In this document: positions 21,355-22,734 of the stretch, piece after piece | How positions within the stretch are numbered: position 1 is the first letter of the stretch | Layout: each line of letters opens with the position of its first letter | Source: Leeia aquatica | GTDB lineage: Bacteria; Pseudomonadota; Gammaproteobacteria; Burkholderiales; Leeiaceae | Length of the DNA stretch: 64,000 nt | Direction: 5' to 3' | Assembly: GCF_012641365.1 (NCBI RefSeq) | Contig: NZ_JABAIM010000001.1 | Coordinates: forward strand, 62,001 to 126,000 | Notes under the pieces: generated by a model | Told to the model about the DNA's origin: nothing | The model's database searches: none | Seen by the model: the letters and a program-made list of their open reading frames with translations, nothing else | Position numbers and translations under genes: made by a program

Positions 21355-22117
21355 GCTGACCCTCGTTTCCTTACCCATCCTTACCGATAATTATATCTGG
21401 CTTTTGCACGACGGATCATCTGCCATTGCCGTTGATCCGGGTGAAGCCGAGCCCTTGCTGCATTACTTGCAGTTGCACGGGCTGCGGCTGCAGGCCGTGC
21501 TGTGCACGCACCACCATTATGACCATGTGGACGGCATCCCGGCCTTGCGGCATGCGCAGCCCGACCTGACCGTTTACGGCCCTGCGACGCCCCGGTTTTC
21601 CACCTGGGTGACGCATCCCGTGGTGGAGGGCTCACGGTTGCCGTTACTGGGGCAGACCTTCCAGGTGCTGGAAACACCGGCGCATACGCTGGATCATGTG
21701 GTGTACTACGCGGCCCCCTGGCTGTTTGCGGGCGACGTGCTGTTTGCCTGCGGCTGTGGTCGGCTGTTTGAAGGCACGCCTGTGCAATTGCAGCAGTCTT
21801 TGCAGCGGCTGGCAGCCTTGCCCGCAGAGACCCTGCTGTGCTGTACCCATGAGTATACGCTCAGCAATCAGCGTTTTGCATTGGCGGTGGAGCCGGAGAG
21901 TCTGGCGCTGCAGCAACGCCACGCGCGCGATGCTCAGCGAAGGGCTGCGGGTTTGAGCACCTTGCCGTCGACGCTGGCGGAAGAAGGACTGACCAATCCT
22001 TTTCTGCGTTGTGAACAGGCGTCCGTACAGCGGGCGGTCAGCCAGCAGGCTGGTGCAGTGTTAACCGACGCTTTGGCCGTGCTGGCGGCGCTGCGTCGCT
22101 GGAAGGATGTTTTCTGA
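21353..22117 (+). CDS. gloB: Hydroxyacylglutathione hydrolase (glyoxalase II)
   Basis: A 254-residue metallo-beta-lactamase-fold enzyme that hydrolyses S-lactoylglutathione to lactate and glutathione. It has the metal motif THHHYDHVDG, the later AHTLDHVVYY and FAGDVLFACGCGRLFEGTP (bridging Asp), and CCTHEYTLSNQRFAL with the third His, plus a C-terminal substrate domain starting near residue 170. The start [16 protein letters not shown] is the family norm. It is divergent from the methyltransferase-rnhA-dnaQ unit. Confidence 0.95.
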   Translation: MLTLVSLPILTDNYIWLLHDGSSAIAVDPGEAEPLLHYLQLHGLRLQAVLCTHHHYDHVDGIPALRHAQPDLTVYGPATPRFSTWVTHPVVEGSRLPLLGQTFQVLETPAHTLDHVVYYAAPWLFAGDVLFACGCGRLFEGTPVQLQQSLQRLAALPAETLLCCTHEYTLSNQRFALAVEPESLALQQRHARDAQRRAAGLSTLPSTLAEEGLTNPFLRCEQASVQRAVSQQAGAVLTDALAVLAALRRWKDVF

Positions 22118-22127
22118 GGCAGGGGGC

Positions 22128-22156
22128 TTGACCCGAGGATTGCCATAGATTATAAA
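22128..22156 (+). promoter_or_regulatory. Sigma70-like promoter of the riboswitch-controlled gene
   Basis: TTGACC (22128-22133) and TATAAA (22151-22156) are separated by exactly 17 bp and begin 11 nt after the gloB stop. Transcription would start near 22163, five bases before the first aptamer. Confidence 0.75.
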
Positions 22157-22167
22157 TGGCATCACAT

Positions 22168-22225
22168 AGCGCCGATTTGATCTGTGTAGCTTGCAAGGCG
22201 CTCTATAAATATTGCTAAAGCGCAT
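22168..22225 (+). promoter_or_regulatory. SAM-II-type riboswitch aptamer (first of two)
   Basis: P1 is AGCGCC (22168-22173) with GGCGCT (22197-22202), six perfect pairs. The P1 loop begins GATTTG and ends GCTTGCAA. After P1 comes TAAAT and then GCTAAAGC (22214-22221). These are the conserved SAM-II (metA motif, Rfam RF00521) nucleotides. The pseudoknot can form from GC 22193-22194 with GC 22214-22215 and GC 22189-22190 with GC 22220-22221. The same 3' strand is shared with an antiterminator: AGCGCAT (22219-22225) is fully complementary to ATGCGCT (22237-22243). SAM binding should therefore free the terminator and switch transcription off. Confidence 0.88.
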
Positions 22226-22228
22226 GCC

Positions 22229-22261
22229 AAACCCGTATGCGCTAAGCGCTACGGGTTTTTT
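22229..22261 (+). terminator. Riboswitch-controlled intrinsic terminator
   Basis: AAACCCGTA (22229-22237) pairs with TACGGGTTT (22250-22258), with an inner GCGC-TAA-GCGC stem (22239-22249) and a T-run to 22261. The competing antiterminator (22219-22225 with 22237-22243) would trap the 5' arm in its loop, so the two structures exclude each other. Confidence 0.88.
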
Positions 22262-22297
22262 GCATTTCAGGATTCAGGGTTCAGGTAAGTTTTACCT

Positions 22298-22368
22298 CAC
22301 GCCGATTTATCAGCTAATTGCGAGGCGTGCCTGACCGGTGTTTACCGGGAAATTTCGCTAAATCGCTG
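22298..22368 (+). promoter_or_regulatory. Second SAM-II-like riboswitch aptamer with a hairpin insert
   Basis: P1 is CACGCC (22298-22303) with GGCGTG (22324-22329), six perfect pairs. The loop again starts GATTT and ends TTGCGA, matching the first aptamer, and GCTAAA recurs at 22357-22362. Pseudoknot pairs: GC 22320-22321 with GC 22357-22358, and CAGC 22311-22314 with GCTG 22365-22368. Unlike the first copy, a perfect 5-bp hairpin CCGGT-GTTT-ACCGG (22335-22348) is inserted between P1 and the pseudoknot strand. Class could be SAM-II or the related SAM-V; the hairpin makes it a variant. Confidence 0.75.
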
Positions 22369-22403
22369 GCCGGAATCAGCGCTCCGTGCCAGGCACAACG
22401 GAG
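22366..22403 (+). promoter_or_regulatory. Translational expression platform of the second riboswitch
   Basis: Two exclusive hairpins are visible. Anti-sequester: CTGGCCGGA (22366-22374) pairs with TCCG-T-GCCAG (22383-22392), 9 bp with one bulge, leaving the ribosome site GGAG (22400-22403) free. Sequester: CTCCGT (22382-22387) pairs with ACGGAG (22398-22403), hiding it. The first hairpin uses bases 22366-22368, which the aptamer needs for its pseudoknot, so ligand binding should favour the sequestered, OFF state. Confidence 0.72.
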
Positions 22404-22410
22404 TTCGGCC

Positions 22411-22734
22411 ATGTCCAAGTATGTCAATGATCTTCCCGCAGAAGTGGTCCTCGGTGCACCTTACACCCCGGAGGCGCGTCCCGCTCGGGTGGTGTACCGG
22501 GTGTTGTTGGTTGGGCAGGATCAACTGGGCCTGATCAAGGCGGGTGAGCAATACTTGCCGCAACAGGTGGCCAGTCTGGAAGTCCGCTTTGAGTCAGCCT
22601 CGCAGCCGGCCTTACAGGCGCATGCCAGCCGGAGCTTTGATTGCGCCGTTTGGCAGTGTCGCGGCGCGCTGGACGAGGCGGTGCTGCATGAGGTGTGCCG
22701 CATTGCGCCCGCCGGGATGCTGCTGGCCGCTTGA
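22411..22734 (+). CDS. Uncharacterised 107-residue protein under tandem SAM-II riboswitch control
   Basis: I do not recognise this family. ATG 22411 is preceded by GGAG at 7-nt spacing. The protein is small, soluble-looking and has no signal peptide or membrane segment. It opens with MSKYVNDLPAEVVLG, then has a hydrophobic strand RVVYRVLLVG, a helix-like QDQLGLIKAGEQYL, a second strand ASLEVRFES, an alanine-rich helix, and ends DEAVLHEVCRIAPAGMLLAA. Three Cys are present but no metal motif. The strand/helix order loosely recalls a receiver-type fold, but acidic-pocket residues are absent. The upstream RNA implies expression when S-adenosylmethionine is low. It is the only gene in the unit: the convergent TraB gene ends 5 nt beyond its stop. 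Confidence 0.7.
   Translation: MSKYVNDLPAEVVLGAPYTPEARPARVVYRVLLVGQDQLGLIKAGEQYLPQQVASLEVRFESASQPALQAHASRSFDCAVWQCRGALDEAVLHEVCRIAPAGMLLAA

Follow-up and report, generated by a model that had tools for sequence, protein, structure and literature searches.

The leader of a small gene of Leeia aquatica carries two SAM-II-type elements in tandem, which in our judgement probably form a two-stage SAM-off switch: a type 1 element that would act through a terminator, followed by a type 2 element, before a gene related to metW. The window, the whole stretch of 64,000 nucleotides that was analysed, holds this leader between gloB (HAGH_C) and a convergent TraB/GumN gene, and the leader ends at an ORF for a 107-aa protein. 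An earlier note on this DNA had described tandem aptamers with a terminator after the first and SD sequestration after the second, and every feature that it named in both elements and their platforms was located where it had placed them (Table 1). A consensus scan for promoters and terminators returned none of either; the possible promoter of Table 1 was missed because the scan rule needs a T as the last -10 base.

Table 1. Features of the tandem leader and its gene, in positions of the window.
Feature	Positions	Strand	Basis and remarks
Possible sigma-70 promoter	22128..22156	+	By eye; TTGACC 22128-22133, 17 nt, TATAAA 22151-22156; a few bases 5' of P1
Element 1, SAM-II aptamer, type 1	22168..22226	+	RF00521 and model R2
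Element 1, P1 (6 bp)	22168-22173/22197-22202	+	
Element 1, core bases	22174-22178; 22191-22194; 22214-22219	+	GATTT; TTGC; GCTAAA
Element 1, P2	22183-22187/22222-22226	+	By eye; weak, 2 Watson-Crick and 3 G-U pairs
Antiterminator	22219-22227/22235-22243	+	9 bp; overlaps the P2 3' strand and the terminator 5' arm
Intrinsic terminator	22229..22261	+	Hairpin 22229-22258, then U tract
Element 2, SAM-II subtype, type 2	22298..22369	+	Model R2; P2 covariation in relatives
Element 2, P1 (6 bp)	22298-22303/22324-22329	+	
Element 2, core bases	22304-22308; 22318-22321; 22357-22362	+	GATTT; TTGC; GCTAAA
Element 2, P2	22310-22314/22365-22369	+	
Element 2, L3 hairpin insert	22335-22348	+	
Competing hairpin (proposed ON)	22366-22374/22383-22392	+	One bulge; takes the P2 3' strand, hides the anti-SD
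Anti-SD:SD helix (proposed OFF)	22382-22387/22398-22403	+	By eye and folding
Gene for 107-aa MetW-related half protein	22411..22734	+	Stop included (ORF 22411-22731); homologues and hhalign

The core pattern GATTT-TTGC-GCTAAA at set spacings matched twice in the 64 kb, both times in the leader, against a mean of 0.02 and a maximum of 1 in 100 shuffles of the window, and a scan for P1 with GATTT, TTGC and GCTAA returned exactly two elements. Rfam at gathering thresholds gave no match in the window. In a sensitive Rfam scan, element 1 matched SAM_alpha (RF00521) with 26.8 bits (E 3.5e-4; cut-off 36 bits) and SAM-II long loops (RF01726) with 22.7 bits; for element 2 the same scan gave nothing relevant, these two families included. 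With the SAM_V model (RF01826) nothing in 22080-22460 matched at E-values up to 10, while the model scored its positive control, the Pelagibacter SAM-II/SAM-V tandem (locus L108), at 74.5 bits. We also used a covariance model, R2, made of 24 type 2 elements with the Leeia genus left out. It matched both elements: element 2 with 49.1 bits (E 3.6e-11 in 78 kb, 1.6e-9 genome-wide) and element 1 with 32.8 bits (E 6.1e-7). The tandem of SAM-II-type aptamers thus held up. Their assignment to the SAM-II class stood as regards core, P1 and P2, which both elements possess, but neither exceeds an Rfam cut-off; of the two scans that had been proposed as a check, RF00521 found element 1 below its cut-off and neither model found element 2. 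The betaproteobacterial setting was borne out as well: a genome of the same order carries the element sequence of Chitinimonas taiwanensis.

The folding models give good support to transcription attenuation by element 1. The terminator hairpin folds at -18.2 kcal/mol (z -4.52) and none of 200 shuffles was as good, which agrees with the claim of an intrinsic terminator after the first element, one of the marks of a bi-mechanism tandem. The antiterminator is present and exclusive by folding, as had been proposed, but is longer than was noted: nascent RNA that contains it is predicted at -16.6 kcal/mol, against -4.3 when 22222-22226 are held unpaired. Element 1 through P1 (22168-22208) folded no better than shuffles (z 0.09). 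On the minus strand, opposite element 1 and the terminator, 22140-22261 matches RF02424 (Bp2_287, a Burkholderia sRNA) with 24.2 bits for a cut-off of 70. A figure legend of the source paper of RF02424 lists metZ and metX among the flanking genes, and this family probably represents a SAM-II leader of metX/metZ deposited in the wrong orientation.

The two elements belong to recognizably different types. Type 1 elements have GATTTG and a short L3, usually together with CAGCTTGC, and at the loci inspected a terminator often follows them; type 2 elements have GATTTA, usually ACTTGC, and lie directly 5' of the start codon. In the tandems scanned the order was type 1, then type 2. GATTT, TTGC and GCTAAA, present in both window elements, are invariant in 27 type 2 elements. 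L3 is at least 18 nt long in 20 of these 27. Of these long L3 regions, 19 form 4 bp or more and 13 do this better than shuffles at p<=0.05, as does the L3 hairpin of element 2 itself (p 0.03). By our own mapping of the eight ligand-contact bases of SAM-II given in PMC11508383, seven fall on invariant type 2 positions; the eighth, the A before UUGC, is a C in most type 2 elements and also in the RF00521 consensus. Type 2 elements in 20 related loci matched no Rfam family at cut-off. Judged by sequence, element 2 represents a distinct SAM-II subtype that appears to be new.

Covariation was measured in two sets of relatives. The first comprised the 27 type 2 elements, gathered with a pattern that fixes the inner four P1 pairs for most rows and so makes those pairs uninformative. 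Over P1 and P2, 81.8% of cells were paired against 75.4% in shuffled sets, double-change cells numbered 31 against 12.2 (0/500 shuffles), and the covariation score was 0.253 against 0.122, slid controls staying at or below 0.110. Two counts on the same 27 elements, two-sided changed pairs (4 against 4.7) and further pair types (11 against 13.9), did not exceed the shuffles. Within P1 the second outermost pair covaries, and the outermost is unpaired in 11 of the 27. The second set, drawn from sources other than the pattern scan and aligned to R2, lost 14 of its 80 rows, which could not be parsed. Here P2 of type 1 scored 0.234 against 0.148 shuffled over 43 distinct elements (0/500; 59.3% paired against 53.3%), in a register that is not sharp, a slide of -1 scoring 0.218. 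P2 of type 2 scored 0.359 against 0.264 over 18 distinct elements (16/500), less strongly than type 1. The covariation that the earlier note had looked to in relatives is thus found in P2 of both types, but the expression-platform helices did not rise above shuffles.

Tandems and single elements are differently distributed. The tandem occurs in 3/3 genomes covered of the Leeia genus, each time ahead of a gene of some 110 codons that evolves fast. Its upstream gene varies, being gloB in the genome of the window and an ABC-ATPase-like gene in the two congeners (G001 and G002); the downstream TraB and dapB-like genes look kept by eye when loci L034 and L036 are compared with the window. Leader and gene therefore seem to have stayed together through rearrangement. 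A second element lies within 350 nt in 14 of the order's 30 best loci. In the order, SAM_alpha matched 93 of 120 genomes at E<=1 and 20 of 120 over the cut-off; since the loose scan also matched 7 of 14 control genomes, none over the cut-off, we regard the weak tail as noise. R2, which picks up type 1 elements too, matched 228 of 300 genomes and 112 of 134 genera of the order at E<=0.01, and 10 of 120 genomes in the whole phylum at E<=1e-4.

A pattern scan of genome contigs gave at least 119 stretches. It recovered the Pelagibacter tandem (L108) as a positive control, and so bore out the SAM-II/SAM-V tandems that the earlier note had mentioned. Pseudomonas or Stutzerimonas account for 70 of the 80 named stretches, and the other named carriers among the matches listed are Chitinimonas, Parachitinimonas, Serpens, a Dechloromonas genome, Novimethylophilus, Halotalea and Desulfobulbus. 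A type 1 element is also present in 5 of the 119 stretches, among the matches listed. One match, in Oscillospiraceae, is without the tail and presumably due to chance. In Pseudomonas, Stutzerimonas and Serpens, 58/58 loci taken from the matches listed hold a single element, four of these loci having less than 350 nt of sequence upstream.

The Pseudomonas type 2 elements precede a gene for a homologue, of about 102 aa, of the window protein. Of the 119 loci among the matches listed, 102 downstream proteins passed a length and motif filter. In the 59 genomes of one family (f55, by our inference Pseudomonadaceae), 30 have the small protein and 32 an R2 match; each of the 30 small-protein genes is preceded, on its own strand and 43-61 nt before the profile match, by a strong R2 match. 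R2 has three other matches there, all of them weak (E 2.9e-4 to 8.4e-3). Other families of the order of Leeia have tandems before small proteins that start with MFDC or MYDC (L018, L027, L044, L050, L051, L065 and others), followed in several loci by a MATE-like transporter gene (one checked with Pfam). A search of 200 genomes gave MFDC/MYDC genes with R2 matching directly ahead of them in 18/18 cases; as the profiles were built from RNA-adjacent genes, this 18/18 and the 30/30 above mean that no unlinked relative appeared at the thresholds used. Kinship between the window protein and the M[FY]DC family was sought and none detected (hhalign probability 0.2%).

Other targets look like methionine genes. 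Apart from the L018 tandem, the strong plus-strand SAM_alpha matches inspected lie, by eye, before metX-, metZ-, metK- or metH-like genes. The Leeia genome itself has a second SAM-II element (L033, contig G000:C3, 3321-3389, minus strand) before a metX-like gene, a Pfam alpha/beta hydrolase, which is followed by metW. In other families single type 2 elements precede metK (two checked with Pfam), which points to SAM as the ligand of type 2; type 2 elements stand before metK at L173, L174, L176, L178 and L190. Desulfobulbus has a tandem before metK, and at L119 the type 2 element before metK is preceded by a type 1 element.

The 107-aa product itself is, from its sequence, a half protein related to MetW and not MetW. 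No Pfam or NCBIfam family was assigned to it or to the other members examined; with the curated MetW model TIGR02081 the window protein found no family and two Pseudomonas homologues reached 11.8 of 189.5 bits. Nineteen aligned relatives are 21-29% identical to it. Its congeners match the family profile with probabilities of 96.6% (G001, E 5.8e-10) and 82.8% (G002, E 9.4e-6), the latter homologue having escaped the genome-wide searches. Over 200 genomes of the order, the profile returned the window protein, one congener and eight partial matches, of which the five identified are all MetW. Indeed, hhalign against seven MetW sequences gave a probability of 95.2% (E 2.7e-8) over residues 26-107, which align with about the first 118 MetW columns; against only two MetW sequences it gave 16.5% (E 0.0015), and against an unrelated methyltransferase of the window, a weak control because it is a single sequence, 0.4%. 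Unlike MetW, the window protein is without the C-terminal ~80 residues and without glycine-rich motif I, LDLGCGDG of MetW being replaced by LLVGQDQL, which makes SAM binding by this protein doubtful.

An AlphaFold model (pLDDT 81) is a small fold in which alpha and beta elements alternate. Among PDB structures it comes closest to the methyltransferase-like domain of anamorsin (E 3.3e-3), with no match at E <=0.001, and a second structure aligner gave no Z above 5.6; the model supports a general Rossmann-like arrangement only. A PDB profile search was uninformative, returning designed TIM barrels at E 0.02. No relatives of the protein were confirmed in viral contigs, and co-absence of MetW and the small protein gave no signal, MetW being present in 58/59 genomes. 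The statement that the target is not a known methionine gene is accordingly right in that no annotated methionine family was found, but has to be qualified by its likeness to the N-terminal half of MetW.

If element 2 controls translation at the ribosome site, it would do so through competition between its two platform helices, on which nascent and equilibrium folds point different ways. In nascent RNA that ends before the SD, the minimum free energy fold is the competing hairpin at -14.9 kcal/mol; blocking the P2 3' strand abolishes it (-6.9). In the full-length platform OFF is the more stable fold as long as the P2 strand is free (-21.7 against -16.6 kcal/mol for ON), and it persists at -14.6 kcal/mol with the strand blocked. 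The SD GGAG is paired in the equilibrium folds whether the strand is free or blocked, and the unpaired probabilities of the AUG are 0.77/0.75/0.73 with the strand blocked against 0.07/0.62/0.29 with it free, the opposite of an OFF switch. Because the SD stays paired at equilibrium and the AUG opens upon blocking, OFF switching at element 2 would have to be kinetic, i.e. co-transcriptional. For the window alone, the anti-SD:SD helix scored 6.5 against 4.34 in shuffles (p 0.034). Over 17 leaders the SD-pairing helix was not significant, 53 of 500 shuffled sets reaching its score, and over relatives the ON helix, at 5.17 against 5.05, did not rise above shuffles. Pseudomonas leaders have, by eye, analogous sequences: GCCTC/GAGGC beside the start, and CGCTGG/CCAGCG. 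Of the SD-sequestration OFF switch described in the earlier note, then, the helices and the exclusive nascent folds are there, but the SD is paired in both equilibrium states.

We propose that without SAM the antiterminator of element 1 would form, and that on SAM binding the P2 pseudoknot would take 22222-22226, allowing the terminator to form and transcription to stop. Transcripts that pass the terminator would reach element 2. Without SAM, its P2 3' strand would join the hairpin that covers the anti-SD while the RNA is being made, and ribosomes could start; with SAM, P2 would take this strand and free the anti-SD to pair with the SD, blocking translation. The 107-aa protein would thus be made only at low SAM, alongside the metX-like gene and metW, which have a SAM-II element of their own. 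In this proposal we infer SAM as the ligand of both elements, the OFF direction, the kinetic nature of translational switching and the function of the protein.

Element 2 might instead bind SAM with no switching of its own, its helices setting a constitutively weak translation start or the element merely lowering translation, so that only element 1 switches expression. The SD pairing in both equilibrium states and the non-significant platform comparison over relatives suit this reading, which we think improbable but give real weight. It sits poorly with the mutually exclusive nascent folds of element 2 and with type 2 standing alone in Pseudomonas and its near relatives: being single there and yet kept at all 30 f55 genes, it should act alone in them. 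The equilibrium folds could also be read as a translational ON switch in which P2, formed with SAM, frees the start codon, as a free P2 3' strand pairs near the AUG and a blocked one opens it. Such a switch seems very unlikely, however, given that the SD GGAG is paired in both states, that it would oppose element 1, and that type 2 elements at metK hint at repression by SAM.

The same metK genes, preceded by single type 2 elements, speak against the idea that element 2 senses a related compound, such as SAH or a SAM derivative, and makes the pair a two-input gate. A distinct subtype, with GATTTA and a usually longer L3, as second element of the tandems scanned would fit this idea, but most ligand-contact bases are conserved in our mapping, and we consider it quite unlikely. 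That element 2 is a SAM-V aptamer is suggested by the order and division of labour of L108; it is extremely unlikely, since RF01826, which detects the SAM-V of L108, fails on element 2 up to E 10, and since the layout of element 2 is that of SAM-II, with a 3' helix of 4-5 bp. Chance resemblance, or a feature of the DNA alone, deserves almost no credence: element 1 through P1 is of ordinary stability, but the R2 E-values of both elements, the core count against shuffles, conservation over genera and covariation rule chance resemblance out. The two-stage SAM-off switch is therefore the reading that we retain.

If this reading is correct, it offers the first functional clue to a conserved Pseudomonas protein of ~102 aa, which is probably SAM-controlled and resembles half of MetW. 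As a conjecture that we rate at somewhat less than an even chance, an unannotated and mostly translational SAM-II subtype would be dedicated to the half-MetW gene, alone in Pseudomonadaceae and as second half of a tandem in the Leeia genus. The product, repressed by SAM, would tune MetX as a partner or antagonist of MetW, and the M[FY]DC family, often beside a MATE transporter, would have been recruited to the same tandem. Were this true, the half-MetW protein would be a missing feedback part of methionine synthesis via MetX, the homoserine acyltransferase. The scans also suggest that SAM-II control is far commoner in beta-proteobacteria and in one gammaproteobacterial family than Rfam cut-offs show. 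This may fill gaps in published methionine regulons: in the parts of Leyn et al. 2014 (PMC4239095) available to us, SAM_alpha is placed only in Rhizobiales and Rhodobacterales, and beta-proteobacterial metK and metY are left unexplained.

SAM-II in beta-proteobacteria is already on record in the sections seen of PMC2258182 and PMC2704228, and one translational SAM-II, called rare, in those of PMC6061858. As far as its accessible text goes, PMC4239095 describes a beta-proteobacterial metXZ RNA element, a pseudoknotted leader with a terminator before metXW and metZ, and does not term it SAM-II there. RF00521 and R2 matches here precede such genes by eye, and the metXZ RNA element may well be SAM-II missed by the Rfam cut-off. 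With RF00521 (Corbino et al. 2005, PMC1273637, from the portion consulted) the Leeia elements share stem and pseudoknot, core, and the setting at methionine and SAM genes; they differ in that element 1 falls below the cut-off and element 2 goes undetected, adding the L3 insert and a proposed translational platform. RF01726 (Weinberg et al. 2010, PMC2864571), a SAM-II variant placed in Bacteroidetes and marine samples in the part of that paper at hand, resembles element 1 alone. Literature searches over openly licensed papers, judged by their listings, turned up no account of the type 2 subtype, of Pseudomonas SAM-II or of the two small-protein targets. The type 2 subtype, without an Rfam family at cut-off in the loci scanned, and its link to the gene for the ~102-aa MetW-like protein thus appear to be new.

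Tandems of two SAM-II aptamers with mixed platforms have been published before, so the architecture itself is known. Sherlock et al. 2022 (PMC9481103), in the passages seen, count 44 tandem SAM-II examples, some with a terminator first and the second apparently at the ribosome site, which parallels the two SAM-II aptamers and the proposed mixed platforms of the Leeia leader. Those passages are silent on target genes and subtypes, and the words Pseudomonas, Burkholder-, Chromobacter- and Neisseria do not occur in the main text; in Leeia the second aptamer is of the L3-hairpin subtype and stands at a MetW-like gene. The Pelagibacter tandem, as far as it is covered in the excerpts of PMC9481103, PMC11508383 and PMC2704228, likewise has a transcriptional SAM-II first and a translational aptamer second, the latter being a proposal in Leeia. 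Its second aptamer is SAM-V, whereas that of Leeia is SAM-II-like.
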